Shown here piece after piece: positions 721 through 55,905 of a stretch of DNA of 64,000 nt. Location: the NCBI GenBank assembly GCA_017480225.1, contig JAFVBB010000001.1, positions 1 through 64,000 of the forward strand. Reading direction: 5' to 3'. The notes beneath the pieces were generated by a model. The model was not told the origin of the DNA. It did no database searches and worked only from the letters and a program-made list of their open reading frames with translations. Position 1 is the first letter of the stretch, and every line of letters starts with the position of its first letter. The DNA is from Bacteroidales bacterium (lineage in GTDB: Bacteria > Bacteroidota > Bacteroidia > Bacteroidales > P3). A program made the translations under genes and the position numbers.

Positions 721-857
721 CGGCAGTGCCAGGGCCGTCTGTTCTTCGATTGTTCTCCGATTGTTCTTCGATTGTTCTTCGAATATAAATCGAAGAACAA
801 TCGAAGAACAATCGGAGAACAATCGAAGAACAGACGGCCTTGACACGGTGTTGACGC
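721..857 (+). repeat. 11-nt-unit palindromic element, copy 1
   Basis: The hairpin runs 733-839: a perfect 50-nt arm (733-782), a 7-nt loop ATATAAA (783-789) and the 50-nt complement (790-839). Each arm is GGCCGTCT plus four 11-nt units in the order GTTCTTCGATT, GTTCTCCGATT, GTTCTTCGATT, GTTCTTCGA. The left flank GTGCCAGGGC and the right flank CTTGACACGG match the flanks of the other copies and set the orientation as plus. It fills most of the gap between the Nif3-like gene and the barrel gene ending at 943. Short ORFs running through it are translations of the repeat, not genes. This copy and copy 6 are perfect palindromes; the other four are not. Confidence 0.95.
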
Positions 858-942
858 CTCGCCGGCAGCGGCCGGATGGGTGCCGTCCGGCAGTATTGGA
901 CGTCGGTGCCGCAAGCCTCGCGGCGGGGCAGGGCAGGGGCAG

Positions 943-2163
943 TCATAGCAGCAGCGAGGCGGTGAATAGCGGAAAAAGGTTGGCACGAAGGCCGTCGGTG
1001 TGGTAGACCGCCGACGACGGCACGAGCCTGGCTGCCAGCGCCGCTCCAAAGTCCACCACGCCCCAGCGCACCACACCGTCGATGCCTGCCACGGCCTCGG
1101 CATAGCCCTTCAGCGGAGCCTGCACATGCACGCCGTCGATAACGGCGAGGCCGTCGGCATCGGCCTCCCACAGGGTGCCCCACATGGCTTTAAGCGACAG
1201 GAACGGCCGGGGGTTGCTGCCCACCGAGAAGAGGCTTGAATAGACGCGGTAGAGCGGGCGCGACAGGCGGACGACCACGCCAGCCTGCGCAAAAGCGTTG
1301 GCAGTGAACTCGTTTATGCCTGCCGTGGCGAGCGACTGCCCTATGTAGAGCGGAGCTCCTGCCACGCCGCCCAGGTCGAAGAGGTCGATGTAGGGCGTGG
1401 ACTCAGGTGTGGCCCCGGCCAGCAGGCTCAACGTGGCGTCGAAAAGGCCGAGGCTGCGGCTGCCCACGTATCCCGCCAGCAGGCGCAGCGATGGGGAGCC
1501 GAGGCCGAGGGGCTGTATCCATTCGGCCTGTGCCATGAGGCCGTTGCCATGGCGCACGGCCACCTTTAGGCTGGCGAATGGCTGGCGGGAGAGCGTGTCG
1601 CCATAGCGGATGTAGAGCATCTGTCCGTCGTCGAAGAGCGGGGCACGGCGACCCAAAGCGGCCTCGGCCAGCCAGCCCACTACGCCCCACGAGCCGCGCG
1701 CGCCGGCCACCAGGCGGTCCTGCACCGTCATCCGCCGCGCCATGAAGCTGCCGAGCAGCTGGCTGCCGCTGGCGGCGGGGTCGGCTATGCGGCGGCTGCC
1801 AACAGAGAAATAGTCGTGCAAGCCCCCAAGGTATACGCTGGTGAGGGCGCCGCCGCGTCGCAGCCTGCCCTCGGCCAGCAGGCCGTATTTCCACTGCCGG
1901 TCGCGGATGCCGTAGCCGCCGTAGGCGTCGACTGTGAGCCTGCCGAAAGGCGTGGCCTGCGGTGCCAGTGTGAGACTGGCGCCCAGCCCCAGGCGCGAGC
2001 CCTCGTAGAGGTTGTAGTCCCACAAGCGGTTGTAGTCCATGCGCAAGCCCGGCTCGGCGGCGGCGCGTGAGGATTGCTGCCGCGCCATGCCCGCGGCCGG
2101 GGTCGCGGCCAGCAGCAGCGCGCACAGGACTTTCCCAATACGGCAGCACAGGTGTTCCGTCAT
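943..2163 (-). CDS. outer-membrane beta-barrel protein, DUF5686-like
   Basis: 406 residues with an N-terminal hydrophobic segment (LCALLLAATPAAGMA) that looks like a Sec signal peptide, followed by alternating short amphipathic strands rich in Gly, Tyr, Leu and Arg and ending in FPLFTASLLL, as expected for an outer-membrane barrel. Segments such as LRLLAGYVGSRSLG and the late YIGQSLATAGINEF resemble the C-terminal barrel of DUF5686 proteins, but the N-terminal carboxypeptidase-like domain usual in those is missing. It has its own promoter, divergent from glyA. Role unknown; barrel nature is likely, family assignment tentative. Confidence 0.65.
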   Translation of the reverse strand: MTEHLCCRIGKVLCALLLAATPAAGMARQQSSRAAAEPGLRMDYNRLWDYNLYEGSRLGLGASLTLAPQATPFGRLTVDAYGGYGIRDRQWKYGLLAEGRLRRGGALTSVYLGGLHDYFSVGSRRIADPAASGSQLLGSFMARRMTVQDRLVAGARGSWGVVGWLAEAALGRRAPLFDDGQMLYIRYGDTLSRQPFASLKVAVRHGNGLMAQAEWIQPLGLGSPSLRLLAGYVGSRSLGLFDATLSLLAGATPESTPYIDLFDLGGVAGAPLYIGQSLATAGINEFTANAFAQAGVVVRLSRPLYRVYSSLFSVGSNPRPFLSLKAMWGTLWEADADGLAVIDGVHVQAPLKGYAEAVAGIDGVVRWGVVDFGAALAARLVPSSAVYHTDGLRANLFPLFTASLLL

Positions 2164-2188
2164 TGCAAGATGGTGCTTGTTTACGTTG

Positions 2189-2196
2189 CAAAATTA
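2189..2196 (-). promoter_or_regulatory. -7 box for the barrel gene at 943-2163
   Basis: Minus strand reads TAATTTTG, an exact TAnnTTTG match, 25 nt before the ATG at 2163. It is divergent from, and about 30 bp away from, the glyA box. Confidence 0.8.
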
Positions 2197-2227
2197 CACA
2201 TTTTTTAGCACATGAGACTTTTTTTCG

Positions 2228-2235
2228 TATATTTG
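2228..2235 (+). promoter_or_regulatory. -7 box for glyA
   Basis: TATATTTG, an exact TAnnTTTG match, 41 nt before the glyA ATG. No clear TTTG -33 element is visible at the usual distance. Confidence 0.8.
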
Positions 2236-2276
2236 CAAAATTGACAGCAGAATAAAAATCCTCATAACAAAAAGAT

Positions 2277-3557: not shown

Positions 3558-3580
3558 CAGCAGGCACAGCGGCAGCATGA

Positions 3581-3614
3581 AGGCCCGGCCCAAGACTGCT
3601 TGAGCCGGGCTTTC
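3581..3614 (+). terminator. intrinsic terminator after glyA
   Basis: Stem GCCCGGC (3583-3589) with GCCGGGC (3604-3610) followed by TTTC. It separates glyA from the deaminase gene and overlaps the TTG at 3600, which argues against that TTG as a start. Confidence 0.7.
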
Positions 3615-3635
3615 TCACCTAACTACAACCCGAAG

Positions 3636-5086: not shown

Positions 5087-6142
5087 ATGACACCAAAACA
5101 ACAAGGATACTACATGCCCGCCGAATGGGCGACGCACGAGGCAACATGGCTCACCTGGCCCAAGAACCCCGATTCATGGCCGGGAAAAATCGAGAGCATA
5201 TATCCATCATACAGGCTTTTTGTCAAGACGCTGGCAGAAGACGAGCTGGTGCACATCAACGTGGACGATGAAGCCGCGCTGCGCGAAGTGCAATCATCAC
5301 TTAAGGCGACTGGCTGCAACATGCAGAACATCAAGCTGCACATCATCCCAAGCAACGACGCGTGGTGTCGCGACCACGGCCCGGCATTCCTGCTGTGCAG
5401 AGACAATCCGGCAAAGCGTGCCATCGTGAATTGGAACCACAATGCATGGGGTGGCAAGTACCCTTACGAACTCGACACACAGGTGCCGGTGAGGGTGCAC
5501 GACCTGATGCCCGACATGCCCCTCTTCGAGCCTGGCATCGTCATGGAGGGCGGAAGCATCGACGTCAACGGATGCGGCGACCTGCTCACCACAACAAGCT
5601 GCCTGCTCAACCCAAACCGCAACCCGCACCTGTCGCAGGACCAGATTGAAGGCTACCTGCGCGACTATTATGGCGTCGACAACATCATCTGGCTGGGCGA
5701 CGGCATTGTGGGCGACGACACCGACGGCCACGTGGACGACCTCTCGCGCTTTGTCGCACCCGACACCATTGTGACAGCAGTGGAGCGCGACGTGTGGGAC
5801 GAGAACTACGAGCCATTGCAGAAGAACCTTCGAATGCTCAAGCGCTGCAGGCTGGCCAGCGGGAAACAGCCCACCATAGTGGAGCTGCCCATGCCCGACG
5901 TGGTGTTCTACGACGGCCAGCGCCTGCCTGCATCGTATGCCAACTTCTATATCTGCAACAAAAAGGTAATCTTCCCAACCTACCGCTGCCTGGCCGACAA
6001 CGAGGCGGCCTACATCCTCGAGGCGCTCTTCCCCGACCGCGAGGTGGTGGGGATAGACTCAACCGACATTGTGTGGGGGCTTGGCTCGTTCCACTGCCTA
6101 AGCCAACAGATGCCGGCCGCCACCCAACAACCCACCGCATGA
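5087..6142 (+). CDS. aguA: agmatine deiminase
   Basis: Peptidyl-arginine-deiminase-family enzyme that converts agmatine to N-carbamoylputrescine and ammonia. The 351-residue protein has WCRDHGP (93-99), VMEGGSIDVN, DDTDGHVDD and the C-terminal GLGSFHCLSQQMP with the nucleophilic Cys near 337. The stop overlaps the start of the following protease gene by ATGA, so the two are translationally coupled. With AguB it makes putrescine from agmatine; no arginine decarboxylase gene lies in the window, so agmatine is either imported or made elsewhere. Confidence 0.96.
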   Translation: MTPKQQGYYMPAEWATHEATWLTWPKNPDSWPGKIESIYPSYRLFVKTLAEDELVHINVDDEAALREVQSSLKATGCNMQNIKLHIIPSNDAWCRDHGPAFLLCRDNPAKRAIVNWNHNAWGGKYPYELDTQVPVRVHDLMPDMPLFEPGIVMEGGSIDVNGCGDLLTTTSCLLNPNRNPHLSQDQIEGYLRDYYGVDNIIWLGDGIVGDDTDGHVDDLSRFVAPDTIVTAVERDVWDENYEPLQKNLRMLKRCRLASGKQPTIVELPMPDVVFYDGQRLPASYANFYICNKKVIFPTYRCLADNEAAYILEALFPDREVVGIDSTDIVWGLGSFHCLSQQMPAATQQPTA

Positions 6143-7722
6143 AAAAAAGCATAGCATCATTGCTGCTTGCCGCCGCCACCATCACCGCGGCCGTGGCGCA
6201 GCGTCCCTATTTACCCGACACTGTCAGTGCCGGCCAAAGCCGCGTCGACGAGGTGATGCGCCTCATCGACGGCAACTACACCGAGCAGCCATCCATGGAC
6301 AAACTGGCCGACGAGGCCGTGACGGCCATGCTTAAGGCCCTCGACCCGCACAGCGTGTACATAGCGGCCAAAGACGTGGAGCGCGCCAACGAGGGGCTGC
6401 AAGGCAACTTCGAGGGGGTGGGCATCTCGTTCCAGATTGTGAGCGACACCATCGTGGTGCAGAGCGTAATCGACGGCGGCCCGAGCGAAAAGGTGGGGCT
6501 CATGATTGGCGACAAACTGCTCCGCATCGATGGCGAACCGGCCACGGGCGACAGCATCAACAACAAATTCGTCTTCGACCACCTGCGCGGCAAGAAAGGC
6601 ACCACCGTGGTGCTCGACGTGCTGCGGCAGGGTTCGGCCTACACCTTCCACATCATTCGCGACAAAGTGCCCATCTACAGCATCGACACATACTTCATGG
6701 TCGACGACACGGTGGGCTACATCCGCCTGATCCGCTTTGCACGCACCTCGGTCAAGGAGTTCGAGAAGGCGGTGCACGCACTCAAGAAGCAGGGCATGAA
6801 GGCCATGGTGCTCGACCTTCGCGGCAACACCGGCGGTTTCCTCGACATAGCCTACGGCATGGCAAATGAGTTTCTCGACCGCGGACAGCTGGTTGTTTAC
6901 CAGGAGGGACGCCGCACACCGAGGCAGAACTTCCGTGCCGACGGGCGCGGAATATGGAGGAAAGGCAGCCTGGTGGTACTTGTCGACGAAGGCAGCGCGT
7001 CGGCCAGCGAGATTGTGAGCGGAGCCGTACAAGACTGGGACCGTGGTCTGCTGGTAGGACGGCGCACCTATGGCAAGGGGTTGGTGCAACGCATGTTCCC
7101 ACTGAGCGACGGTGGCCAGGTGCGACTCACCACCGCACGCTACTACACGCCCAGCGGCCGCTGCATACAGCGCCCCTACGACAATGGCAGCGACGCCTAC
7201 CGCGACGACATCAGCGAGCGCTACAAGCACGGTGAGATGGTGAACGCCGACTCCATTCACTTCCCCGATTCTCTCAAGTTCCGCACCATGCATGGCCGCA
7301 CTGTCTACGGTGGCGGAGGGGTGATGCCCGACATCTTCGTGCCGATGGACACCATGCGCCTTTCCGACTACTACATCTCGCTGCGCGGCAAAGGCCTGAT
7401 GAACAGCTTCCCCTTGCAATGGGCCGACCAGCACCGCCACGACCCACGGACGCGCACTTTCACCGACTTCCTGGCAAACTACCACTCGTTTGGCCTCGAC
7501 AGCCTGATGGCCGAGGCCGCCACAGCGCAGGGCATCGTGCGCGACCTGGAGAAGGAGGCCGCCGAGCCGGACCGCACAGCCCACAGCGACCACTACATGA
7601 GCCTCATGCTCAAGGCGCAGGTGGCAAAGGACCTTTTCGGAATTGAGCATTACTACCGCGTGATGAAAGAGGCCGACGACGGCCTGAACGAAGCCTTGCG
7701 GCAACTGGCCGGCAAGCGGTGA
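6139..7722 (+). CDS. S41 family C-terminal processing protease
   Basis: 527 residues from ATG 6139, which overlaps the aguA stop by 4 nt; a longer frame opening at 5794 lies inside aguA and is not used. Signal peptide MKKSIASLLLAAATITAAVA, then an N-terminal helical domain, a PDZ domain about residues 88-175 (GVGISFQI, IGDKLLRIDG), and the S41 core with VLDLRGNTGG, the serine in DEGSASASE (283-291) and Lys313 in YGKG. This is the Ser/Lys dyad of CtpA/Tsp proteases. The mature protein should act in the periplasm. Its coupling to a cytosolic polyamine pathway has no obvious logic. An intrinsic terminator follows. Confidence 0.93.
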   Translation: MKKSIASLLLAAATITAAVAQRPYLPDTVSAGQSRVDEVMRLIDGNYTEQPSMDKLADEAVTAMLKALDPHSVYIAAKDVERANEGLQGNFEGVGISFQIVSDTIVVQSVIDGGPSEKVGLMIGDKLLRIDGEPATGDSINNKFVFDHLRGKKGTTVVLDVLRQGSAYTFHIIRDKVPIYSIDTYFMVDDTVGYIRLIRFARTSVKEFEKAVHALKKQGMKAMVLDLRGNTGGFLDIAYGMANEFLDRGQLVVYQEGRRTPRQNFRADGRGIWRKGSLVVLVDEGSASASEIVSGAVQDWDRGLLVGRRTYGKGLVQRMFPLSDGGQVRLTTARYYTPSGRCIQRPYDNGSDAYRDDISERYKHGEMVNADSIHFPDSLKFRTMHGRTVYGGGGVMPDIFVPMDTMRLSDYYISLRGKGLMNSFPLQWADQHRHDPRTRTFTDFLANYHSFGLDSLMAEAATAQGIVRDLEKEAAEPDRTAHSDHYMSLMLKAQVAKDLFGIEHYYRVMKEADDGLNEALRQLAGKR

Positions 7723-7812: not shown

Positions 7813-7972
7813 CGGTGCCAGGGCGCTTTGTTCTTCGATTGATGTCCGATTGTTCTTCGATTGTTCTCCGATATTAAATCGAAGAACAATCGAAGAACAA
7901 TCGGAGAACAATCGAAGAACAGACGGCCTTGACATAGACTTGGCACGGTATATATACTGAAAATCAATCACT
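7813..7972 (+). repeat. 11-nt-unit palindromic element, copy 2
   Basis: Core 7830-7920: left arm units GTTCTTCGATT, GATGTCCGATT, GTTCTTCGATT, GTTCTCCGA; loop TATTAAA (7872-7878); right arm complementary to the standard order with AGACGGCC at 7921-7928. Two units differ between arms, so the hairpin has mismatches. Left flank GGTGCCAGGGC; right flank CTTGACATAGACTTGGCACGG, then ACTGAAAATCAATCAC. It sits between the convergent S41 protease and Porin_10 genes, downstream of a terminator. The remaining AT-rich stretch 7973-8035 shows nothing I can name. Confidence 0.95.
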
Positions 7973-8035: not shown

Positions 8036-10126
8036 CTAATCGAAGAAACACCACGTCAGACCCCACATGAGGCCGAAGCCCTGCCCGGGATAGTGGGGCA
8101 GGAGGAAGTAGGTGGCCGGGGTCTCCCACAGCGCATTGACGTGGCCGGCCTTGACGTAGATGCTGGCGCGCTTCACCTGAATGTTCACGAATGCGTCGGC
8201 CCACAGGTAGCCGCCCACGCTGATCTCGTCCTGACGCAGGAAGAGGCCAGTCTGCGGATGGTAGAGCGGCGCGTGGTAGGGAGTGTGGTAGCGCAGGTCG
8301 GCGCCCACATGCAGGCGCAGCTTGTCGGCAAATAGGGAGAAGTCGGCGTAGAGCGAATTTTTGCTCATCCACAGGGGCAGCGGCTCCTGCTCGGGATCGG
8401 TGCAGTGCTGCAGAAGCTGCTGCATGTCGAGGTGTAGAAGCCCGAGGTGAAGGCGCGCCGTGACGGCTGCCTGCAGCAGCCAGTAGGGGCTGCTGCCCTG
8501 GTGCACGGCCAGCATGGTGTCGTGCCATGTGTTGTGGCTTTGGTTGGTGGCGCGGAGCGTGAGGTCGAGCATGTCGCGCACAACGAGGCGCAGGCTGGCC
8601 TGTCTGCTGGCGATGGGCGAGAGCGCGCCCGCAGCGTCGTGCAGGGTGCGCGCGTCGGGCATTTTGCTTTGCGCAACGAGCGAGAGGGTGGCCGACGAAA
8701 GCCCGGCGCTGTCTATGGGCATGGCGAGGGCGGCCGCCATGCGGCTGTCGGTGCTGCCAGCAAAGTTGCCCCTGGCCTCGGCGTCGAAGGTCACGGTTGC
8801 GCGCCACAGGGTGGCGTTGACGCGGGCAAACGGGTCAAGCCATGAGGCAAGGCGCATCGTGTCGGCGTCAATCACTGCGGTTGCCATGTGGGGGCGCAGT
8901 CCGGCAGTGACCTTCAAGGGATTGCGCCAACGATGGTCGGCGTAGGCGTCGTTGGTCCAAAAGAGGGTCAGCGTCTGCTCGCGCCACAGAGTGCTGTCTA
9001 CGAACACACGCTTTCGCCTTTCGGCGGCAGCCTCGATGCCGATCACACCGGCGTTGAGTGTGCGCGGGCGGCGCAGCGGCACGGTGTCGACGAGCTGTAT
9101 GGTGTCGATGCGCACCGTGCTGTCGGCAAGGATGATGGTTGCCAGCGAGTCGCGCGGCACCAGCCACTCGCTCTGCCGCTCGAGGCTGTAGCTGGCGCGC
9201 GCACCAGCCATGAGGTCGCGGTGGCGTGTACCGGCATTGCTCATCACCACCGGTATGCCAGCCGTGTTGCTTTGCAGGCGCAGGGTGAATATGCTGTCGT
9301 AGAGCAGGCCGCCGTTCTCGTCGATGTTGAGCGCCTGGCGGACAATGTAGCCCGAGGCTTGCAGTCGTGAGTCGGCCGAGAAGTAGTTGGTCGTGGCGTA
9401 AAGATGGTGGTTCACGGCGCCGCTCGAAGTGTAGGCGCCCTCGGGGTTGAGCAGGCGGTAGGCGAAGGCCGCGTTCCAGCCCGGACGAATGTTCTGTGTG
9501 TGCAGGAGCGACAGCGAGTGGTCTTTGTCGAGCGAGCCGCCGTAGGAGAGCTTGCTGAAGGGGGTGAGCGTCTGGAAGTACTCCAGGTTGCCTGGCGTCA
9601 CGGCATAGGCGGCGAAGGCGTCGGGCTGGAGGCGCTGCGACAGTCCGTCGGCCGGAGTGGGGAAGAGGCCGGTGTGCTGGTGGCCAAGCGAGCCCTTGCC
9701 GATGAAGTAGTTGCCGTTGAGGGCGTCTATGGCGTCGTTGAACTGTGCGCCGGTCGGGTCGAGCGAGGGGTTGCCCACGGTGTCAATCCACACAGTGGCT
9801 GTGCGCAAGTTGAAGCTGAAGACCTTCTGCTTCAGCACCGAGTCGGGCACCTCCTTGCGGTAAACCAATCCCTTTGCCGCCGAGGTGTCGGTGTAGGCTC
9901 CTGTTGAGTCCTGCCGCGACAGCAGGCCTGCGGGGCCTCCAGCCGACCCACCCGACATGCCGCCCATTGAGCCCATGCCTGACGGCATGTTGCCGCCCCC
10001 GCCGTTGGAAGGCGTCCTCACCTGCGCCTGAGCGGCCAGCGAGAGCGCGAGCAACAAAGCCAACAGCCCACCACCAAGCTGCGTGCCGGTGGGCGTGCGA
10101 CGGTGGGCTGTAGGCCTTGTGGGCAT
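8036..10126 (-). CDS. putative porin, Porin_10 (DUF4289-like) family
   Basis: 696 residues. Signal peptide region GGGLLALLLALSLAAQAQ, then a low-complexity Gly/Met/Ser segment (about residues 40-66), then a long barrel-like region with repeated aromatic-ended strands. FDAFAAYAVTPGNLEYF-like and SYGGSLDKDH stretches near the N-terminus and the closing GFGLMWGLTWCFFD fit the putative porin family found throughout Bacteroidota, often as the last gene of a metabolic operon. Here it starts 6 nt after trxB and is the last gene of a seven-gene operon. Substrate unknown; outer-membrane location inferred. Confidence 0.8.
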   Translation of the reverse strand: MPTRPTAHRRTPTGTQLGGGLLALLLALSLAAQAQVRTPSNGGGGNMPSGMGSMGGMSGGSAGGPAGLLSRQDSTGAYTDTSAAKGLVYRKEVPDSVLKQKVFSFNLRTATVWIDTVGNPSLDPTGAQFNDAIDALNGNYFIGKGSLGHQHTGLFPTPADGLSQRLQPDAFAAYAVTPGNLEYFQTLTPFSKLSYGGSLDKDHSLSLLHTQNIRPGWNAAFAYRLLNPEGAYTSSGAVNHHLYATTNYFSADSRLQASGYIVRQALNIDENGGLLYDSIFTLRLQSNTAGIPVVMSNAGTRHRDLMAGARASYSLERQSEWLVPRDSLATIILADSTVRIDTIQLVDTVPLRRPRTLNAGVIGIEAAAERRKRVFVDSTLWREQTLTLFWTNDAYADHRWRNPLKVTAGLRPHMATAVIDADTMRLASWLDPFARVNATLWRATVTFDAEARGNFAGSTDSRMAAALAMPIDSAGLSSATLSLVAQSKMPDARTLHDAAGALSPIASRQASLRLVVRDMLDLTLRATNQSHNTWHDTMLAVHQGSSPYWLLQAAVTARLHLGLLHLDMQQLLQHCTDPEQEPLPLWMSKNSLYADFSLFADKLRLHVGADLRYHTPYHAPLYHPQTGLFLRQDEISVGGYLWADAFVNIQVKRASIYVKAGHVNALWETPATYFLLPHYPGQGFGLMWGLTWCFFD

Positions 10127-14490: not shown

Positions 14491-15513
14491 TCAATCGGCC
14501 GCGAAGCCGTCGGGGTTCTGCCGCTGCCAGTTCCAACTGTCGCGCACCATGTCGTCGATGCCGAGGCGTGCCTGCCAGCCAAGTTCGCGCAGCGCCTTCG
14601 AGGGGTCGGAGTAGCAGGTGGCCACGTCGCCGGCGCGCCGTGGCTTGATGGCGTAGGGCACGTGCACGCCGTTCACGCGCTCGAAAGCCTTCACCATGTC
14701 GAGCACCGAATAGCCATGCCCGGTGCCGAGGTTGTAGACCTCCAGGCCGCAGCCGCGCCCTATGGCCTGCAGCGCGCTGACGTGGCCCGCCGCCAAGTCG
14801 ACCACATGGATGTAGTCGCGCACGCCGGTGCCGTCGGGGGTGGGGTAGTCGTCGCCGAAAACGCCCAGCTCGGCCCGCTTGCCAACGGCCACCTGCGTGA
14901 TGTAGGGCATCAGGTTGTTGGGTGTGCCGTTTGGATCCTCGCCGATGCGCCCGCTGGGGTGGGCGCCCACCGGGTTGAAGTAGCGCAGCAGCACCACGTT
15001 CCACTGCGGGTCGGCACGCTGCATGTCGGCCAATATCTGCTCAATCATGCTCTTGGTCCATCCGTAGGGATTGGTGCAGACACCCTTGGGGCAGGCCTCG
15101 GTGATGGGCATCTCGGCGGGCTCGCCGTAGACGGTGGCGCTGCTGCTGAAGATGATGTTGCGGCAGCCGTGGCGACGCATCACGTCGACCAGCGTCAGCG
15201 TGCCGCCGATGTTGTTGTCGTAGTATTCCCACGGCATCTCGACGCTCTCGCCCACAGCCTTCTTGCCCGCGAAGTGGATGCAGGCGTCAAACTGGTGGTC
15301 GCAGAAGAGCAGCTCGAGCCTGATGCGGTCGCAGATGTCGCACTCGTAGAAGGGTATTCCGTCCACGCCGATGATCTCCGCCGTGCGGCGCAGAGCCTCA
15401 TGGCAGCTGTTGCTCAGGTTGTCGACCACCACGGCGGTGTGACCCGCGCGGTAGAGCTCAATCAATGTGTGGGTGCCGATAAAGCCGGCTCCGCCAGTGA
15501 CCAGTATTTTCAT
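14491..15513 (-). CDS. galE: UDP-glucose 4-epimerase
   Basis: Extended SDR enzyme interconverting UDP-glucose and UDP-galactose. Start at ATG 15513 (MKILVTGGAGFIGTHT); upstream in-frame codons run into the palindrome. NAD motif GGAGFIG (7-13), catalytic Tyr150 and Lys154 in NPYGWTKSM, and Ser in FSSSATVYGE. 340 residues, normal length. It has its own promoter and is divergent from htrA. Confidence 0.97.
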   Translation of the reverse strand: MKILVTGGAGFIGTHTLIELYRAGHTAVVVDNLSNSCHEALRRTAEIIGVDGIPFYECDICDRIRLELLFCDHQFDACIHFAGKKAVGESVEMPWEYYDNNIGGTLTLVDVMRRHGCRNIIFSSSATVYGEPAEMPITEACPKGVCTNPYGWTKSMIEQILADMQRADPQWNVVLLRYFNPVGAHPSGRIGEDPNGTPNNLMPYITQVAVGKRAELGVFGDDYPTPDGTGVRDYIHVVDLAAGHVSALQAIGRGCGLEVYNLGTGHGYSVLDMVKAFERVNGVHVPYAIKPRRAGDVATCYSDPSKALRELGWQARLGIDDMVRDSWNWQRQNPDGFAAD

Positions 15514-15566
15514 ATCCTTTTGTTTTACTTGTGTTTGCAAGCCCTGCACCAAGCAGGACCCGACCG

Positions 15567-15637: not shown

Positions 15638-15797
15638 GCGTCAAGGCTGCCTGTTCTGCGATTGATGTCCGATTGTTCTTCGATTGTTCTCCGATGCTAA
15701 ATCGAAGAACAATCGAAGAACAATCGGAGAACAATCGAAGAACAGACGGCCTTAACACGGACTTAACGACTTGGCAGGCTGGTTTTCAGACAGATAC
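15638..15797 (+). repeat. 11-nt-unit palindromic element, copy 3
   Basis: Core 15653-15743: left arm GTTCTGCGATT, GATGTCCGATT, GTTCTTCGATT, GTTCTCCGA; loop TGCTAAA (15695-15701); right arm standard, with AGACGGCC at 15744-15751. Right flank CTTAACACGGACTTAACG, then CTGGTTTTCAG and AGATACA, matching copies 4 and 6 on the opposite strand. It lies between the divergent galE and htrA genes. The rest of this gap (15798-15954) shows no promoter or RNA that I can recognise, although htrA must be transcribed from somewhere in it. Confidence 0.95.
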
Positions 15798-15954
15798 ACA
15801 AATACAAATCCACAAACGCCTATCATTCAACGAATTAAGAAACCGCCGAATAGCGGCAGCGGCAGTCGTCGCCGCGCGGCAAAAAAGGTGCGCCCGCACG
15901 CAATATTTCCAGTCACTCGTCGTTTGGGAGGTCGGAAAGAAAAACAGCAAAGAG

Positions 15955-17091
15955 ATGAAGAAAGTGACAGCAATAGTGGCGACGGCGCTTTGCCTTGCGG
16001 CAGCGGCCTGCGCACAAAAAGGCAGCGAGGCGGGTGCCGGCACCGCCGAGCCCGCACGGGTGGCCGCACCGGAGCGCCCGCGCATAGAAATCAGGGACTT
16101 CACCGACGTGGCCGCAGCCACAATCGACGCCGTGGTGCACATCAAGACCGAGGTGACGCAGCTGACGCCGCTCTACCAGTCGTTCTTCGGCTTCATTGTG
16201 CCGCAGGGCGTGCAGCGGCAGGTATACAACGCGTTCGGTTCGGGGGTGATAGTCACGAGCGACGGCTACATACTGACGAACAACCACGTGGTGGAGGGCG
16301 CTGAGCGCATCACCGTGACGCTGAACGACAAGCGCGAGCTTGAGGCCGAGCTGGTGGGCACCGACCCGGCCACCGACCTGGCTGTGGTCAAGGTGGCGGC
16401 CGAGGGGCTGGTGTACCTGCCTTTCGGCAACAGCGAGCAGGTGAGGGTAGGGGAGCCCGTGCTGGCCATCGGCAACCCGTTCAACCTCACATCGACGGTC
16501 ACCAGCGGCATCATCAGCGCAAAGGCGCGCAACATGCACATCATCGATAACCCGAAGACAGGCGACACACCGCTCGAGTCGTTCCTCCAGACAGATGCGG
16601 CCGTCAATTCAGGCAACAGTGGAGGCGCACTCGTCAACTCGCAGGCCGAGCTCATAGGCATAGTCACGGCCATAGCGTCGGGCAACGGCAACTACATAGG
16701 CTATTCGTTTGCCATACCCTCCAACCTTGCGGCCAAGGTGGCTGGCGACCTTCAGCGCTACGGCCATGTGCAGCGCTGCTATCTGGGCGTGCAGGTGACC
16801 GAGGTCGACGCCTCGCTGGCCAAGGCCACGGGCGCCAGGGAGATAAAGGGCCTCTACGTGAGCCACGTCATAGCCGACTGCGCCGCCGCGCGGGCCGGCA
16901 TAAAGGAGGGCGACGTCATACTGCGCGTGGCCGGCAAGGAGGTGAACACCTTCGCCGAGATGATGGAGGAGCTGGGACTGTACAGCCCGGGCGACGAGGT
17001 TGAGGTTGACTTCGTGCGCGGCGGCAGCGCCAACACCGTGACCGCCCGCCTGCTCAACTCGAAAGGCAACACGCAAATCATCCGCGGGTGA
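15955..17091 (+). CDS. HtrA/Do-like serine protease, lipoprotein with a single PDZ domain
   Basis: 378 residues from ATG 15955. N-terminus MKKVTAIVATALCLAAAAC ends in a lipobox (Cys19), so the protease is probably lipid-anchored in the envelope. Catalytic triad His111 (NNHVVEGA), Asp141 (TDLAVVKV) and Ser222 (GNSGGALV); one PDZ domain about residues 275-370. Most Bacteroidales DegQ/HtrA proteins are near 500 residues with two PDZ domains and no lipobox, so this is a short, DegS-like architecture. Its stop overlaps the GTG start of the MATE gene. Expected role: envelope protein quality control. Confidence 0.92.
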   Translation: MKKVTAIVATALCLAAAACAQKGSEAGAGTAEPARVAAPERPRIEIRDFTDVAAATIDAVVHIKTEVTQLTPLYQSFFGFIVPQGVQRQVYNAFGSGVIVTSDGYILTNNHVVEGAERITVTLNDKRELEAELVGTDPATDLAVVKVAAEGLVYLPFGNSEQVRVGEPVLAIGNPFNLTSTVTSGIISAKARNMHIIDNPKTGDTPLESFLQTDAAVNSGNSGGALVNSQAELIGIVTAIASGNGNYIGYSFAIPSNLAAKVAGDLQRYGHVQRCYLGVQVTEVDASLAKATGAREIKGLYVSHVIADCAAARAGIKEGDVILRVAGKEVNTFAEMMEELGLYSPGDEVEVDFVRGGSANTVTARLLNSKGNTQIIRG

Positions 17092-21023: not shown

Positions 21024-22658
21024 TTACTCTTCCGCGCTGATGAACGGATACTTGTAGTCGCTGGCCGGATCAAAGGTTTCCTTCACGGCCTGCGGGCTCA
21101 CCCAACGCAGCAGGTTCAGATACGAGCCGGCCTTGTCGTTGGTGCCACTGGCTCGCGCGCCGCCAAACGGCTGCTGGCCGACCACGGCGCCCGTGGGCTT
21201 GTCGTTGTAGTAGATGTTGCCCGCGGCGTATTTGAGCGCCTCGGCGCCCTGGCGCAAAGCACGGCGGTCGGTGGCGAATATGGCGCCAGTGAGCGCGTAT
21301 GGCGAAGTCTCGTCGCACAGGCGAAGCGTCTCCGCATACTTGTCGTCGTCGTAGACGTAGACCGTGATTATCGGGCCGAAAATCTCCTCGGCCATCGACT
21401 TGTAGCCGGGTGTTTTGGCCAGGATGACAGTGGGCTCCACAAACCAACCCTGGCTCTTGTCGCCGTGACCGCCGAAGACAATCTCGGCGTCGGCGCTGTT
21501 GCGCGAATGTTCTATATAGGCCATACAGTTGTCAAACGACGCCTCGTCGATCACCGCGTTGACGAAAGCCGAGAAGTCGCGCACGTCGCCCATCTTTATC
21601 TCGGCCAGCATACCGCCCACGATGTCACGCACCTGCGGCCACATCGAGGCAGGCACATAGGCGCGGCTCGCCGCCGAGCACTTCTGGCCCTGAAACTCGA
21701 AAGCTCCGCGCACAATGGCCGTGGCTACCTGCCTGGCGTCGGCGCTGCAGTGGGCGAAGATGAAGTCCTTGCCGCCCGTCTCGCCGACGATTTTCGGGTA
21801 TGTGCGATAGTGCTCTATGTTCTGACCAATCTGTTTCCAGAAGCCGTTGAAGGTACGCGTGCCGCCGGTGAAGTGCACACCGGCCAGGTTCGCGTCGGCA
21901 AAAGCCACGCTGCCGATCAGCGCGCCGCTACCTGGCAGGAAGTTGACCACGCCGTCGGGCAAGCCTGCCTCCTTGTAGATCTTCATCAGTATGTAGTTGC
22001 TCAACAGAGCGGTGGTGCTGGGTTTCCACACGCACACGTTGCCCATCAGCACCGGCGACAGGCAGAGGTTGGAGGCTATGGAGGTGAAGTTGAACGGGGT
22101 CACCGCCAGCACAAAACCCTCGAGCGGACGGTAGGTGACATAGTTCAGCGTGCCACGGTCTGAGCAAGGCTGGTCGCTGTATATCTGACTGGCATAGAAA
22201 GTGTTGTAGCGCAGAAAATCAACGAGTTCACAAGCCGAGTCGATTTCGGCCTGCATCGTGGTCTTGCCCTGGCCCAGCATGGTGGCGGCATTGATCAGGT
22301 AGCGGTACTTGCCGCTGACGAGGGTCGCTATTTTCAGCATTACGCTGGCGCGGTCAATCCACGGCGTGTCGGCCCACTCGCGCTGCGCCTTCATGGCGGC
22401 GGCAATAGCCTCGCGCACCTCGCGCTCGCCCACCTTGTGGTAGCGTGCCAGCACGTGGTGGTTCTCCGTGGGCATCACCACCTCGCCCATGTCGCCTGTG
22501 CGCACCTCCTTGCCACCGATAATGGCAGGAATTTCAGTCACAACACCGTATAGCTCGTCGAGGGCCTTGCGGATTTCCTTGCGCTCCGGGCTGCCGGGCG
22601 CGTAGCCCATCACCGGCTCGTTCCCTGGTTTGGGAAACATGTAAATGCTGTTGTCCAT
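21024..22658 (-). CDS. pruA: L-glutamate gamma-semialdehyde dehydrogenase
   Basis: NAD-dependent aldehyde dehydrogenase that oxidises glutamate semialdehyde/pyrroline-5-carboxylate to glutamate, the second step of proline catabolism. Start at ATG 22658 (MDNSIYMFPKPGNEP); an upstream ATG at 22703 is possible but adds an atypical segment. 544 residues, normal for the ALDH4 type. TPFNF (187-191), Glu293 in VGETGGKD and Cys327 in GQKCSAASR are the catalytic motifs. No proline dehydrogenase gene is in the window. Own promoter on the minus strand. Confidence 0.95.
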   Translation of the reverse strand: MDNSIYMFPKPGNEPVMGYAPGSPERKEIRKALDELYGVVTEIPAIIGGKEVRTGDMGEVVMPTENHHVLARYHKVGEREVREAIAAAMKAQREWADTPWIDRASVMLKIATLVSGKYRYLINAATMLGQGKTTMQAEIDSACELVDFLRYNTFYASQIYSDQPCSDRGTLNYVTYRPLEGFVLAVTPFNFTSIASNLCLSPVLMGNVCVWKPSTTALLSNYILMKIYKEAGLPDGVVNFLPGSGALIGSVAFADANLAGVHFTGGTRTFNGFWKQIGQNIEHYRTYPKIVGETGGKDFIFAHCSADARQVATAIVRGAFEFQGQKCSAASRAYVPASMWPQVRDIVGGMLAEIKMGDVRDFSAFVNAVIDEASFDNCMAYIEHSRNSADAEIVFGGHGDKSQGWFVEPTVILAKTPGYKSMAEEIFGPIITVYVYDDDKYAETLRLCDETSPYALTGAIFATDRRALRQGAEALKYAAGNIYYNDKPTGAVVGQQPFGGARASGTNDKAGSYLNLLRWVSPQAVKETFDPASDYKYPFISAEE

Positions 22659-22860: not shown

Positions 22861-23026
22861 TATCACACTGATTTCCAGCACCAACAGTGCATCAAGTCCG
22901 TATCAACACCGTCTGTTCTTCGATTGTTCTCCGATTGTTCTTCGATTGTTCTTCGATTTAATATCGGAGAACAATCGAAGAACAATCGGACATCAATCGA
23001 AAAACAGTCGCCCCTGACATGCCGCA
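22861..23026 (-). repeat. 11-nt-unit palindromic element, copy 4
   Basis: Core 22915-23005, inverted relative to copies 1-3. Read on the minus strand the arms are GTTTTTCGATT, GATGTCCGATT, GTTCTTCGATT, GTTCTCCGA; loop TATTAAA; then the standard arm and AGACGGTGTTGATACGG. The distal flank (22866-22876 on plus: CACTGATTTCC) matches copy 6. It sits between the pruA promoter and the end of the DUF2147 gene, both minus strand. Nothing else is recognisable in 22731-22860 or 23027-23153. Confidence 0.95.
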
Positions 23027-23153: not shown

Positions 23154-23615
23154 CTACTGCCCCACCCTGTCCCAAAATACAGTCTCGCTGATGCCCAGCA
23201 GGGTACCCTTCACTTTCAGACGGCCATCGGCGGTGAACTCGACGGTGGCGGGGGCGCGGATGCCACGCAGGGGGTCGTAGATGCGGGCTCCATCCCAACG
23301 GTGGCGCTTGCTGTTGTAGCGCAGCCCCGAGATGAGCACCACGCGGTCGTAGGGCACGGAGCGGAGGCTCTTGTCGGGATTCTTGACGTCGAGGCGTTTA
23401 TTGCCCTGGGCGTCGCGGTCGTGCTCCACCCAGACCACCTGCGCGCGATAGCTTCCATCGTCCTGTCGGCTCACCTCCACACGGAACGGTTCACCGGCCT
23501 GCAGGCCCGAATAGAGGCCGATGATGTTGTCGGCCCGGTCGTTGAACTGATTTTGCGCCAGGGCTGTCGCCGCAAAGCACAGCAGCGAGGCAATCGCGAC
23601 GAGTAAACGTTTCAT
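23154..23615 (-). CDS. DUF2147 family secreted protein
   Basis: 153 residues from ATG 23615. Signal peptide MKRLLVAIASLLCFAATALA; mature part has GLYSG, YRAQVVWVEHD, and a compact C-terminal VKGTLLGISETVFW, the pattern of DUF2147 proteins, small secreted beta-rich proteins of unknown role. It is 19 nt downstream of sufB and is the last gene of a ten-gene minus-strand run. Palindrome copy 4 follows it. Confidence 0.85.
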   Translation of the reverse strand: MKRLLVAIASLLCFAATALAQNQFNDRADNIIGLYSGLQAGEPFRVEVSRQDDGSYRAQVVWVEHDRDAQGNKRLDVKNPDKSLRSVPYDRVVLISGLRYNSKRHRWDGARIYDPLRGIRAPATVEFTADGRLKVKGTLLGISETVFWDRVGQ

Positions 23616-43765: not shown

Positions 43766-44521
43766 ATGAAATTCACACTGCATATATGGCGCCAGGAGAA
43801 CGCACGCGCCAAAGGCCGCTTCGAGACCTACAAGATAGACAACATCAGCGACGAGTGCTCCTTCCTTGAAATGCTCGACCAGCTGAACGAGCACCTGGTG
43901 GCCGACAAGATAGCCCACCCCGTGTGCTTCGACAACGACTGCCGCGAGGGCATCTGCGGCATGTGCGGCCTCTACATCAACGGCCGCCCGCACGGCAACG
44001 ACGACGGCGTGACCACCTGCCAGCTGCACATGCGCCACTTCCACGACGGCGACGAGATATGGATTGAACCCTGGAGGGCAAAGGCATTCCCCGTCATCAA
44101 AGACCTGGTGGTCGACCGCACCGCATTCGACAAGATAATTCAGGCCGGTGGCTACATCAGCGCCACCACCGGCGGCGTGCCCGACGCCAACAACATCCTC
44201 GTGCCCAAGCACAAGGCCGACCAGGCCATGGACGCCGCCGCCTGCATTGGCTGCGGAGCCTGCGTGGCTGCCTGCAAGAACGCCAGCGCCATGCTCTTCG
44301 TTGGCGCCAAGGTGAGCCACCTTGCCCTGCTGCCGCAAGGCAAGCCCGAGGCACAGGACCGCGTGCGCAAAATGGTCTGCAAGATGGACGAGCTGGGCTT
44401 CGGCGCCTGCACCAACACCTACGCCTGCGAGGCCGAGTGCCCGAAGCAGATAAAGAGGCAGAACATAGCCCGCCTCAACCGCCAGTGGATAGGCCAGGCC
44501 CTGGGCCGCGACCGCAACTAA
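43766..44521 (+). CDS. sdhB: fumarate reductase/succinate dehydrogenase iron-sulfur subunit
   Basis: 251 residues. [2Fe-2S] cysteines in [14 protein letters not shown], then [11 protein letters not shown] and [12 protein letters not shown] for the [4Fe-4S] and [3Fe-4S] clusters. Transfers electrons between SdhA and the membrane subunit. Last gene of the operon; a strong terminator follows. Confidence 0.96.
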
Positions 44522-44664: not shown

Positions 44665-44831
44665 ATAACCCACTGATTGCCAGACTAATAAAGCACAAAA
44701 GCAATATCAAGGCCGTCTGTTCTTCGATTGTTCTTCGATTGTTCTCCGATTGTTCTTCGATACAAAATCGAAGAACAATCGAAGAACAATCGGACATCAA
44801 TCGAAGAACACACTGCCCTGACACGCGGCAG
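44665..44831 (-). repeat. 11-nt-unit palindromic element, copy 5
   Basis: Core 44719-44809 with GGCCGTCT at 44711-44718; inverted orientation. On the plus strand: GTTCTTCGATT, GTTCTTCGATT, GTTCTCCGATT, GTTCTTCGA; loop TACAAAA (44761-44767); then the complement carrying the GATGTCC variant (as GGACATC). Distal flank ACTGATTGCCAG at 44672-44683 corresponds to the flank of copies 4 and 6; the other flank CTGACACGCGGC matches the rest. It lies between the sdhB terminator and the polysaccharide genes. The stretch 44832-44995 before the chain-length gene shows no TAnnTTTG box. Confidence 0.95.
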
Positions 44832-44995
44832 AGGCGCGGCACTCCGCATCACCGCCGTCTTTCACTCGTGGCGCTCCTCTGCCGACCGCGCCGGTTCACA
44901 TGGCTGGCCGGATAATTATTTTTCCCTACAGGCAATAATGGCACAGCGCTTGCGTTATGCGGACATTCGAGTGTAAACAGAACAAAACAGCGATT

Positions 44996-45847
44996 ATGGA
45001 GCAGAACTTTGGCAACGGCTACGACCACGGCGCGACGCGCCGCTTCTTTGCCCGCTGGTGGCGGGTGCTGCTGATTGTGGCCGCGGTGGCGGCGGCGGCG
45101 AGCCTGGTGGTGTCGCTCATCATCAAGCCCCTCTACAAGTCGTCGGCGGTGCTCTTCCCCACCAGCTCGAACCGGCTGTCGAAGGCCATAATGGACTACC
45201 ACTACAGCCTTGACTTCATGGACTACGGCGTGGAGCGCGACTGCGAGTATGCCATCCAGATACTGTCGTCGAAGCGCATGGAGCAGGCCGTGTGCGAGCA
45301 CTTCAACCTCATGGAGCACTACGGCATCAAGCCCGACGGCGCGCACCCGCAGTTCCGCCTGTCGAAGCAGTACAGGAGCAACATCTCGGTGAAGCGCACC
45401 GACTTCCTGGGCGTCGAGATAGGTGTGCTCGACCAGGACCCGGCCTGGGCGGCGATGATAGCCAACTACATGGCGGCCATGTACGACACGCTGTGCCACG
45501 AGATACACGCCGACCGTGCCGAGAGCGCGGCCACGGTGATGAAAGGCGTGGTGGAGGCGCTGGAGAGCGAGATTGACTCGCTGAGCGCCACGCAGGGGCA
45601 GTCGGCATGGAAGAAGACCCTCATAGATGACAAATGCGGGCAGCTGGCCGACCTTCAGACCCGTGCCATGCAGACCGAGGTCGACAAAGGGCTCGAGGTG
45701 AGCTACAAGTACCTGGTTGACGAGGCCGTGCCGACCGACAAGAAGGCCTACCCCAAGCGACTGCTCATCGTGCTTGGCGGCACGCTGGGCGCGGTGGTGG
45801 TGTGCATCTTCGGCCTGCTGGTGTTCGCCCGGAAAGAGGAGGAATAG
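44996..45847 (+). CDS. Wzz-like polysaccharide chain-length determinant
   Basis: 283 residues from ATG 44996 (MEQNFGNGYDHG). Two transmembrane helices (about 20-42 and 256-277) flank a periplasmic helical domain, the layout of Wzz/PCP proteins that set O-antigen or capsule chain length. VLFPTSSNRLSK after helix 1 is also typical. No tyrosine-kinase domain. The O-antigen ligase gene follows after 10 nt. Confidence 0.85.
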   Translation: MEQNFGNGYDHGATRRFFARWWRVLLIVAAVAAAASLVVSLIIKPLYKSSAVLFPTSSNRLSKAIMDYHYSLDFMDYGVERDCEYAIQILSSKRMEQAVCEHFNLMEHYGIKPDGAHPQFRLSKQYRSNISVKRTDFLGVEIGVLDQDPAWAAMIANYMAAMYDTLCHEIHADRAESAATVMKGVVEALESEIDSLSATQGQSAWKKTLIDDKCGQLADLQTRAMQTEVDKGLEVSYKYLVDEAVPTDKKAYPKRLLIVLGGTLGAVVVCIFGLLVFARKEEE

Positions 45848-51062: not shown

Positions 51063-51069
51063 ACATGGC

Positions 51070-54246: not shown

Positions 54247-54271
54247 CAACAGCAAACACAACAACACCGTT

Positions 54272-55294
54272 ATGAACAGCAAAACATCGCACACCCGCCT
54301 CCTCACGGCCACAGCCCTGGCGCTGGCCGCCATCGGCTCGCTGCTGGCAGCAGCCTGCGAGGTGGAATTCTCGCCCAACGCGGAGTGGAAAGACGTGCCG
54401 GTGGTCTACTGCCTGCTCGACCAGGACGACGACACCACCTGGGTGCGCGTGGAACGATGCTTCCTTGGCGAAGGCAGCATCTACGACTTCGGCCAGATAG
54501 CCGACTCCATCAACTACCCCGTCGGCAGCATCGACGTGCGCCTGCTGTCCTATCGCAACGGCACGCTGCAGTCTACCGAAAGCCTCAACGTGGCCATGCG
54601 CCCGCGCGAGGACGGCAGATTCGCCTCCGAGCCACAGCCCATCTACTACACCGACACCCGCCTCGACGAGGGCATGATGTACAAACTCGAAGTGCTGAGC
54701 ACCGCCGACGGCTCCACGCTGGCCACGACCGACGCCATACAGCTCATCATCAACCGCAACAGCCAGCTGGTCACGCGCCCGTCACTGCACGACATCTTCA
54801 AGTTCCTCGGACGCTACGGCGCCGAGCCCGCGTGCGAGATCGAGTGGAACCAGCTCGACGGCGCGCGGCGCTACAAGCCCATGGTGCGCTTCTACTACGG
54901 CGAGCTGGGCGACACCCATTACGTCGACATTCCCTGCCCCACCGTCCTCACAGGCAACAACGTGGGCAAACTCTCAACCATCTGCACACGCAGCGATTTT
55001 CTCGAGACCATACGCCTGGCGCTAAAGGACGACCCCAACCCGAAGGAGTACCTCAAATACGTCGACCTCTACATCACCGCCTGCGACGAGAACATGAGCC
55101 TCTACCTCACCTCCGTGTCGAGCGGCATCACCATCAACCAGACCACCGACGTCTACTCAAACATCGAGGGCGGCCTGGGCGTCTTCGCCGCGCGCCGCAC
55201 ACATCTGCACAAGACCATCCAGGCCGACTCCTCAATCGTGCCGCCCAACGGAATGCAGTACATGCTCGAGCAGCTGGGCGTGGGCTTCCAATAA
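54272..55294 (+). CDS. predicted lipoprotein, DUF4249-like
   Basis: 340 residues from ATG 54272. Signal with lipobox LLAAAC (Cys about 29), then VVYCLLDQDDDTTWVRVERCF, YYTDTRLDEGMMYKLEV and SLHDIFKFLGRYG. This resembles the Bacteroidota DUF4249 lipoproteins often paired with an outer-membrane receptor, but the match is by general layout, so I hold it loosely. It lies 25 nt after the GH2-like gene, which is probably secreted too. Confidence 0.65.
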   Translation: MNSKTSHTRLLTATALALAAIGSLLAAACEVEFSPNAEWKDVPVVYCLLDQDDDTTWVRVERCFLGEGSIYDFGQIADSINYPVGSIDVRLLSYRNGTLQSTESLNVAMRPREDGRFASEPQPIYYTDTRLDEGMMYKLEVLSTADGSTLATTDAIQLIINRNSQLVTRPSLHDIFKFLGRYGAEPACEIEWNQLDGARRYKPMVRFYYGELGDTHYVDIPCPTVLTGNNVGKLSTICTRSDFLETIRLALKDDPNPKEYLKYVDLYITACDENMSLYLTSVSSGITINQTTDVYSNIEGGLGVFAARRTHLHKTIQADSSIVPPNGMQYMLEQLGVGFQ

Positions 55295-55304
55295 CCAGCA
55301 GCCT

Positions 55305-55601
55305 ATGGAGAGGGAGGAGTTGCTAAGGCAGTGCAGGTACTACAAGGGCGAGCGGAAATCACCCTATGGGCGCTGGCAGCAGTCGTGGTACTGGGACATG
55401 GAACGCGTATGGGTGGCCAGTGGCGGACGGTTCGAAGGCGAAGGCCAATACTACATGGCGCACGGCTTCGACACCTTTGAAGGCCAGGTGCCGTTCAGCC
55501 TACTGGTGACGATGTTCACCTCGTGGGGCAAGACAGAATATGACATCCCGGCGGCCATAGGCTCGTTCTACGCCATTGTGAGAGAATATCTTGGTGAATA
55601 A
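55305..55601 (+). CDS. small conserved-looking protein of unknown function
   Basis: 98 residues, no signal peptide or membrane helix. Charged and aromatic-rich (RWQQSWYWDMERVWV, YYMAHGFDTFEGQVPFSLL), ending REYLGE. Starts 10 nt after the lipoprotein stop and is followed by a terminator, so it is the last gene of the kamD-led series. No family recognised. Confidence 0.6.
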   Translation: MEREELLRQCRYYKGERKSPYGRWQQSWYWDMERVWVASGGRFEGEGQYYMAHGFDTFEGQVPFSLLVTMFTSWGKTEYDIPAAIGSFYAIVREYLGE

Positions 55602-55634
55602 AAGGAGGGGAGCGCACCGCTCTCCTTTTTTATT
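55599..55634 (+). terminator. intrinsic terminator after the 98-residue gene
   Basis: Stem AAAGGAG..GAGCG with CGCTCTCCTTT (one small bulge), followed by TTTTTAT, directly after the stop codon. Confidence 0.75.
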
Positions 55635-55734
55635 TACCATCGATGCAGGAAATAGAAAAAGGCAAGCTTTGCAGATGGCGCGCAACACACTATCAACCAA
55701 CGCGCTACGAATAACAATCGCACAAATCATCTTG

Positions 55735-55905
55735 TATCACACTGAAAACCAGCCACAAGACACATCAAGTCCATATCAACACCGTCTGTTCTTCGATTGT
55801 TCTCCGATTGTTCTTCGATTGTTCTTCGATTTAATATCGAAGAACAATCGAAGAACAATCGGAGAACAATCGAAGAACAGACGGCCTTAACATTGCCCCG
55901 ACACC
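55735..55905 (-). repeat. 11-nt-unit palindromic element, copy 6
   Basis: Core 55788-55878, perfect 42-nt arms (unit order GTTCTTCGATT, GTTCTCCGATT, GTTCTTCGATT, GTTCTTCGA), loop TTTAATA (55830-55836), then AGACGGCC (55879-55886). Flank TATCACACTGAAAACCAGCC (55735-55754) and ATCAAGTCCATATCAACACC (55764-55783) closely matches the flank of copy 4, so orientation is minus. It separates the kamD-led series from the low-GC lipoprotein. The rest of the gap (55906-56064) is AT-rich with no other recognisable element. Confidence 0.95.

Follow-up and report, generated by a model that had tools for sequence, protein, structure and literature searches.

What are the oriented intergenic repeats of about 160 bp that recur along a stretch of a Bacteroidales genome (GenBank assembly GCA_017480225.1, contig JAFVBB010000001.1, positions 1 to 64,000; this whole stretch of 64,000 nucleotides is called the window here), and what keeps them apart? 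An earlier note, made from the sequence alone, had described six copies of a family built from 11-nt units, and all six were found at their positions in the present analysis. The genome of the window (G000; 2,053,254 bases in 22 contigs, 97.6% complete) carries two families of these sites with unlike units on one chromosome, whose sites are separated by about 10 kb on average and very rarely by less than 4-5 kb. The other G-numbered genomes mentioned below are relatives and the L-numbered items are loci of relatives; relatives retain the architecture and the period of 11 with different unit letters. Our preferred reading, held tentatively and with somewhat less than even confidence, is that these are DNA-level, spaced chromosomal sites with a fast turnover of the unit, and that the spacing is functional and concerns chromosome organisation.

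Each of the six window cores is made of eight 11-nt units, arranged as two inverted arrays of four. The alphabet of three units proposed earlier was reproduced, with A GTTCTTCGATT, B GTTCTCCGATT and C GATGTCCGATT; the left arm is often A-C-A-B, also A-B-A-A or a variant, and most right arms are A-B-A-A or A-A-B-A. The hairpin with four units per arm was present in all six copies, but the loop is 5-7 nt rather than a constant 7 nt, and complementarity between the arms is incomplete in part of the copies of this family, designated family 1. The T/G-rich strand of each arm reads 5' to 3' towards the centre of the core. Folded as RNA, the six cores gave energies of -56.3 to -73.8 kcal/mol (z of -13.3 to -19.0, 100 mononucleotide shuffles each), and folded as DNA, -36.7 to -51.9. 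The distal motif of the earlier description, CTGGTTTTCAG or the reversed form CTGAAAATSAG, begins about 35 nt beyond the right arm, except that copy 1 is without it; a further, looser CTGTAAATCAG-like motif follows about 41 nt beyond the distal motif in some copies. Copies 1-3 point right and 4-6 left, as stated before, although copy 6 has right-type flanks on either side and is close to symmetric.

Copies were counted in four contig stretches of G000 (C1, C11, C14 and C17), which comprise 858,659 bases or 42% of the genome. A two-unit 22-mer matched G000 387 + 407 times with up to three mismatches, while the reversed control matched 0 + 0 times, and no isolated A unit was detected outside the family-1 copies (0.2 expected from composition); family 1 is therefore present beyond chance. 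The lack of single units also ruled out single sites of the uptake-signal kind. In the DNA search for copies, 40 of 149 first-look candidates were scored. The family extends beyond the window: the stretches hold 56 copies, all two-armed, with cores of 91 bp (49 copies), 80 bp (six) and 113 bp (one), and extrapolation gives about 134 in the whole genome. The window has one copy per 10.7 kb, in agreement with the earlier estimate of about one per 11 kb, and the sampled stretches have one per 15.3 kb.

The program TRF reported 136 period-11 arrays in these stretches, of which 105 overlap the 56 family-1 elements and 31 do not. Most of the latter belong to a second family with the unit GTTGAGTAGGA. 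By pattern search, 31 copies of family 2 were located (12 in C1, nine in C17, and five each in C11 and C14), and none of the 31 overlaps a predicted gene. Family 2 folds more weakly than family 1, with z below -3 in 18 of the 31 copies. The motif CTGRTTTWCAG (up to two mismatches) was found in 30 of the 56 family-1 copies, 25-60 nt beyond either arm, in 28 of the 31 family-2 copies, within 50 nt to the right of the array, and in 28 of 2000 random 50-nt windows; the search spaces differ somewhat among the three counts, and the chance rate for family 1 is doubled because two sides were searched. A stricter form of this motif lay within 130 bp of 36 of the 158 period-11 sites in eight genomes, as compared with 2 of 277 control gaps.

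The spacing of the sites was analysed against random placement. For family 1 alone, the smallest of 52 spacings is 4,272 bp, and three are shorter than 5 kb, while 1,000 random placements had a mean of 15.0 and a minimum of seven; contig C14 is strongly over-dispersed by itself, and C17 is significant by its minimum spacing. The two families together give 87 sites, or one per 9.9 kb of sampled sequence, with a mean spacing of 9,583 bp, a coefficient of variation (CV) of 0.37 and a minimum of 4.3 kb. No spacing is shorter than 4 kb, whereas three placement nulls gave 24.5-27.4 (P<1/2000); the third null used 207 gaps, either of at least 100 bp or site-bearing, and gave a CV of 0.86 and 24.5 such spacings. 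When family 2 was placed at random with family 1 fixed, the observed spacing was matched in 0 of 3,000 draws. The copies of family 2 fill gaps in the spacing of family 1. The smallest distance between neighbours from different families is 4,918 bp in G000 (n=38) and 6,979 bp in G096 and G100 (n=11). Within the window, the period-11 sites lie near 0.8, 7.9, 15.7, 23.0, 33.4, 44.8 and 55.8 kb. Period-11 sites of any unit, pooled after merging those within 200 bp of each other, avoided one another in five of six relatives tested, namely G096 (19 sites), G042 (11), G094 (7), G100 (12) and G041 (15); P for the minimum spacing was 0.0000-0.0105 under all three nulls. Spacing beyond chance, as expected of spaced chromosome-organising sites, was found in G000 and in these five. 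In rumen and gut bacteria of the group, intergenic arrays of 11-nt units, often palindromic, occur roughly every 10 to 25 kb.

Of all single results, the spacing across families is the strongest. Loss driven by homology should spare unlike units; therefore, either the distances are selected, or dispersal is inhibited by a shared feature, for example the phased array or the CTG motif. The latter case would be non-autonomous mobile DNA with range-limited immunity, in which an enzyme recognises features common to both families (perhaps these two) and a copy blocks others for several kb. Immunity of limited range is known for Mu, Tn7 and Tn3 relatives. Such dispersal would account for the exclusion without strict evenness in G041 and for the high copy number. 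Whole elements appear to be copied, as judged from the 49 of 56 copies with exactly 4+4 units and from a variant unit at fixed arm positions, and two cases of presence and absence were found between conserved neighbours, L331 against a 138-bp gap and L343 against a 24-bp gap of G000. On the other hand, the 56 family-1 copies have neither sharp ends nor defined terminal inverted repeats; identity among them declines gradually over about 95 nt on the right side and 40 nt on the left, and tests for target duplications of 2-9 nt stayed within the permutation maximum (left offsets 5-59, right offsets 10-129). The 723 predicted proteins of the sampled 42% of G000 include no multi-copy transposase, and paralogues of at least 55% identity form one tandem cluster and no others there. 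Y1_Tnp, the RAYT (REP-associated tyrosine transposase) model, had no match in G000 at E<=1e-5. We consider this origin somewhat unlikely.

The letters of the unit differ among the relatives. Within the genus, we found GTTCTACGGTT (G047), GTTGTCCCATT (G054), GTTCTCATATA/GTATACATATA (G042), GTTCTTATGTA and GTTGTACTATC (G096), GTTGTACAATA, GTTGTCCGCTT and GTTGTCCAGTC (G100) and GTAGTATTACG (G041), while GTTCTTCGATT is common to RUG737, G048 and G000, with different flanks. Since the relatives hold the period while the unit changes, and G000 itself holds a second unit, the length of 11 nt is the feature that persists. TRF analysis of 2,058,659 bases of the genus gave 270 period-11 arrays, of which 246 are wholly intergenic, against 167 of 574 arrays of other periods, and the earlier description of the family as intergenic is supported. 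Unpaired arrays also occur in the genus. In the flanks 12-70 nt outside the hairpins, lag 11 was strongest in four of seven genomes (z 3.4-7.3, values that overstate the significance because the copies are related); lags 8 and 22 exceed it in G000, and G094 and G041 gave no lag-11 signal. In all six genomes compared, facing units resembled each other more than non-facing ones did, a likeness that hairpin detection itself favours except in G000 (0.934 versus 0.897). Two of the ten G042 hairpins in the synteny, flank-period and pairing analyses had a weak period-11 signal (0.5), below the threshold of the later pooled tests. No period-11 hairpin was found in G036 or G088 (100 kb scanned each), or in other genera, sampled on a small scale by five stretches of 20 kb.

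The pattern (GTTSTN6)x4 with one mismatch matched 58 of 190 genomes of the taxonomic family, in 2 of 12 genera; 57 of the 58 belong to the genus of the window, and G000 has the most array matches. These genus counts are not clean, because the reversed control is itself 11-periodic and also matches within the genus (292 versus 1,450 matches; 16 versus 29 genomes with at least five). In a sample of the phylum, 15 of 395 genomes matched, with four matches or fewer each except for the window's own genome, and controls reach eight. Among named genomes, the unit type was present in at least 71 stretches, mostly uncultured Bacteroidales or Bacteroidetes metagenome-assembled genomes; carriers among the matches listed are RUG737, RUG10805, RUG14564, RGIG6769 (sheep rumen), Red_deer_4_mag_30 and UBA2939, and matches in unrelated bacteria were taken for chance. 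Two separate observations were made in the relatives. Locus L174 (positions 1490-1600) carries a head-to-head array whose arms have different units, of the GTTCTTCGGTT and GTTCTTTTACT types, and period-7 arrays make up 44 of 131 arrays in G094, 27 of 132 in G042 and 20 of 90 in G041, as compared with 1 of 277 in the G000 stretches.

Gene order around the elements was compared using gaps for which both flanking genes were found in G000. From seven relatives, none of 15 element gaps was still adjacent in G000, against 20 of 43 element-free gaps of at least 100 bp (p=0.001). A second set (105 loci, 62 elements, one-way best hits) gave 2 of 5 against 5 of 11, and both sets together, one-way, 2 of 20 against 25 of 54 (p=0.006); the two-way totals were 0 of 19 against 28 of 60, or 2 of 24 against 33 of 71 with the second set, with some element-free gaps counted twice. 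The genes flanking copy 3 were on separate contigs, or about 104-128 kb apart on one contig, among the matches compared. These comparisons are limited by metagenome assemblies, partial contigs and genes called with our own program, and operon borders may be more frequent among the gaps that carry an element. Element sites coincide with breaks of gene order, which is an association and does not establish a cause.

Such breaks would be expected if the elements were functionless palindromes homogenised by recombination, which would delete the DNA between near pairs and disturb gene order. The first synteny set fits this explanation, as do the conservation fading outward from the hairpin, the matched arms and the gradual turnover of the unit. 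However, families with unlike units avoid each other too, where loss by homology should not act, and the second synteny set does not show the effect. Free exchange of arms would also give many copies with two right or two left sides, and this idea was rejected; by the distal motif, the two-right form was found in 1 of 56 family-1 copies. Recombination alone is, in our judgement, distinctly unlikely.

In the preferred reading of spaced chromosomal sites, the elements would act as DNA and be neither genes nor RNAs: arrays of 11-nt units, placed head to head as a palindrome in family 1, with a CTGRTTTWCAG-like motif often beside them. A putative oligomeric DNA-binding protein may read the 11-bp phasing, close to one turn of the helix, and possibly the shared motif as well, and the sites bound by it would organise or bound stretches of the chromosome. 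As suggested earlier, the units may present the same face of the DNA, one per turn, to a repeated protein. The palindromes could extrude under supercoiling. The unit letters probably turn over fast, and recombination, both among copies and between arms, would keep them uniform within a genome, as suggested by the species-specific units, the matched arms and the conservation from the centre outward. Sites are gained and lost over time, as the two cases of presence and absence show. We lean towards an organising role because the spacing rule recurs in several species, no mobile machinery appeared in the sampled part of the genome, and the sites are retained in a genome dense with coding sequence. 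A further proposal, which we advance still more tentatively, is a chromosome-wide lattice kept in its architecture (11-nt phasing, usually a palindrome, spacing of about 10 kb) and not in its letters, with interchangeable families that are recognised through their phase, their shape and a short motif in common, and with a unit rewritten in each species. A period that outlives its sequence, together with avoidance across families, is explained neither by ordinary transposition nor by loss through homology. A functional spacing would represent a novel type of signal for chromosome layout that can be read from raw sequence, and a spacing that results from dispersal would imply an immunity blind to the unit sequence. 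The genus, with about 120 sequenced species of differing units, offers a natural series for testing either.

Several observations weigh against an organising role. Exclusion can arise without function, through dispersal immunity. The spacing of family 1 is not significant on contigs C1 and C11 taken alone; G041 shows exclusion without even spacing (CV 0.84, P 0.44-0.57), and G088, with five sites, shows neither. The strict CTG motif lies near 29 of 87 sites in G000, yet near 7 of 71 in relatives. Family 2 is mostly in divergent gaps and family 1 is not (16 of 53), so that their roles may differ. No binding protein turned up, and no systematic search for one was made.

The gene context and the pairing of the arms bear on a role as RNA. 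About 90% of G000 is coding by our own gene calls. The 53 placed family-1 copies are in 16 divergent, 29 tandem and 8 convergent gaps, similar to the copy-free gaps (50, 86 and 18), whereas 22 of 30 family-2 copies are in divergent gaps. A promoter or terminator role for family 1 was rejected on this background-like context and because neither flank prefers gene starts. The arms of 47 oriented copies (nine ambiguous ones of the 56 were dropped) contain 127 G.T, 133 A.C and 195 other mismatches, and since the first two are near equal, neither strand is favoured as RNA. The elements might still be terminators, stabilisers or sources of processed double-stranded RNA, as the stable stems of all six window copies and the folding of the 18 family-2 copies would allow. 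With no strand preference, a family-1 context equal to background and a family 2 that prefers gaps away from transcript ends, we regard an RNA-level element as very improbable, and the earlier suggestion of a long regular RNA helix as the working form was not borne out.

Known repeat systems were also compared. Repetitive extragenic palindromic sequences (REPs) are 20-40 bp long with an unpaired GTAG or CGTC tag, the GTAG types go with RAYT genes, and they sit mostly between unidirectional and convergent genes (PMC3733652, PMC3116915). The present elements resemble REPs, their hairpin-forming pairs (REPINs) and bacterial interspersed mosaic elements (BIMEs) as high-copy, intergenic, species-specific palindromes with several families per genome, but differ in that no RAYT gene was found in the genome, the elements do not flank the RAYT genes examined in relatives, and the unidirectional or convergent bias is absent. 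The hexamer AGACGG, which contains the reverse of CGTC, adjoins one or both arms in 55 of the 56 copies and pairs with the opposite side in some; the flanks differ in other species. RAYT genes were found in 70 of 120 genomes of the genus, and array loads of at least ten in 13 of the 70 with RAYT versus 5 of the 50 without (rank test p=0.08). Among 12 RAYT loci of relatives, three have ordinary REP-like hairpins, one has a period-11 hairpin 1.3 kb away, and the rest have neither. A REPIN-like element moved by RAYT would be palindromic, intergenic and high-copy, as these are, and the load figures lean that way, but it has already failed for G000, where the RAYT-like partner gene suggested earlier was not found, and the RAYT loci seldom adjoin the repeat; we take it to be extremely improbable. 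The three cases of RAYT genes with adjoining REP-like hairpins are at L231 (2403-2465), L236 (1194-1245) and L237 (2357-2430), with a CCCCTACGGGG-type core in L231 and L237. The palindrome nuclease SbcD was not found in G000, and its model exceeded the cut-off in 57 of 120 genus genomes. Loss of SbcD as a licence for palindromes was set aside as weak (loads of at least ten in 8 of 57 genomes with it versus 10 of 63 without; rank p=0.03, threshold p=0.80).

A second comparison is BrickBuilt of Porphyromonas gingivalis, a miniature inverted-repeat transposable element with 23-nt direct repeats in one direction, 1 to 22.8 units, 19 copies and small inverted-repeat ends (PMC4596501). Both are intergenic and dispersed, with a tandem-repeat core between an unlike leader and tail, long predicted stems, a Bacteroidales host and no Rfam match. 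The elements described here differ in the period of 11, in having mostly two inverted arrays of four, in far more copies, in a unit that varies between species, and in that no inverted-repeat ends were found. They are similar to BrickBuilt and REP/REPIN as high-copy intergenic stem-forming repeats, and fail the defining tests of these where tested. Sets of short direct-repeat units are found between genes in Beggiatoaceae as heptamers such as TAACTGA, many per genome (PMC4679880); these differ in the 7-nt unit and in direct repetition, and the available part of PMC4679880 reports no palindrome or spacing rule. Rfam gave no gathering-level match in the window, phage and plasmid records gave none for copy 6, and viral contigs gave none for the core pattern. 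Neither Rfam nor open-access PubMed Central yielded a description of the family, in keeping with its earlier designation as unrecognised.

Two systems of chromosome or plasmid organisation were also considered. The parC centromere of plasmid R1 has clustered 11-bp direct repeats bound by one protein; the repeat length is alike, but parC is a single plasmid site next to its partner genes and the present sites are many and chromosomal. The matS sites are many of one kind on a chromosome, with one fixed sequence and in one region only; the spread of many sites is alike, but here the unit varies by family and species.

The direction of the arms raises another possibility, that arrays were added to broken chromosome ends in the manner of telomere repeats and the ends then fused head to head. 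The T/G-rich strand running towards the centre in each arm, the period-11 signal continuing outside with other letters in some genomes, the association with breaks of gene order, the two-unit array of L174 and the unpaired arrays would all fit. Against it, exactly 4+4 units, with a variant unit at fixed positions, are present in 49 of 56 copies, two copies lie between conserved neighbours, and we know of no bacterial enzyme that adds arrays to broken ends and fuses them. We find this origin scarcely credible.

The window copies and their neighbouring genes are as follows (ORF, open reading frame).

741-831, + strand: copy 1 core, units A-B-A-A / A-B-A-A with one base changed
about 726-740 and 832-848, + strand: left and right flanks of copy 1, no distal motif
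294-788 (+) and 943-2163 (-): ORFs beside copy 1, no Pfam match for either
7830-7920, + strand: copy 2 core, units A-C-A-B / A-B-A-A
from 7921: right flank of copy 2, reversed distal motif near 7957-7967
6139-7722 (+) and 8036-10054 (-): S41 peptidase and Porin_10 protein beside copy 2
15653-15743, + strand: copy 3 core, units A (one change)-C-A-B / A-B-A-A
near 15779-15789: distal motif CTGGTTTTCAG in the right flank of copy 3
14491-15549 (-) and 15694-17091 (+): epimerase-family gene and trypsin-like/PDZ protease gene beside copy 3
22915-23005, - strand: copy 4 core, right flank towards lower coordinates, distal motif near 22868-22878
21024-22658 (-) and 23154-23615 (-): aldehyde dehydrogenase gene and ORF beside copy 4
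33352-33405, - strand: the single family-2 copy of the window, unit GTTGAGTAGGA, best-matching array 33355-33388
about 33327-33337, - strand: motif TTGATTTTCAG of the family-2 copy, which falls between copies 4 and 5
44719-44809, - strand: copy 5 core, units A-C-A-A / A-A-B-A, distal motif near 44673-44683
43766-44521 (+) and 44957-45847 (+): iron-sulfur protein gene and gene with a sub-threshold Wzz match beside copy 5
55788-55878, - strand: copy 6 core, units A-B-A-A / A-B-A-A, perfect pairing, distal motif near 55742-55752
55305-55601 (+) and 56165-57550 (+): ORF and fn3-domain gene beside copy 6

Predicted genes extend into copy 1 by 48 nt and into copy 3 by 50 nt, the latter at the predicted start of the protease gene 15694-17091, within the core; both overlaps are possibly due to mispredicted gene ends. 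Elsewhere in the window, at 61409-61726, three diverged 45-nt direct repeats (starting at 61409, 61478 and 61682) lie within long reading frames.

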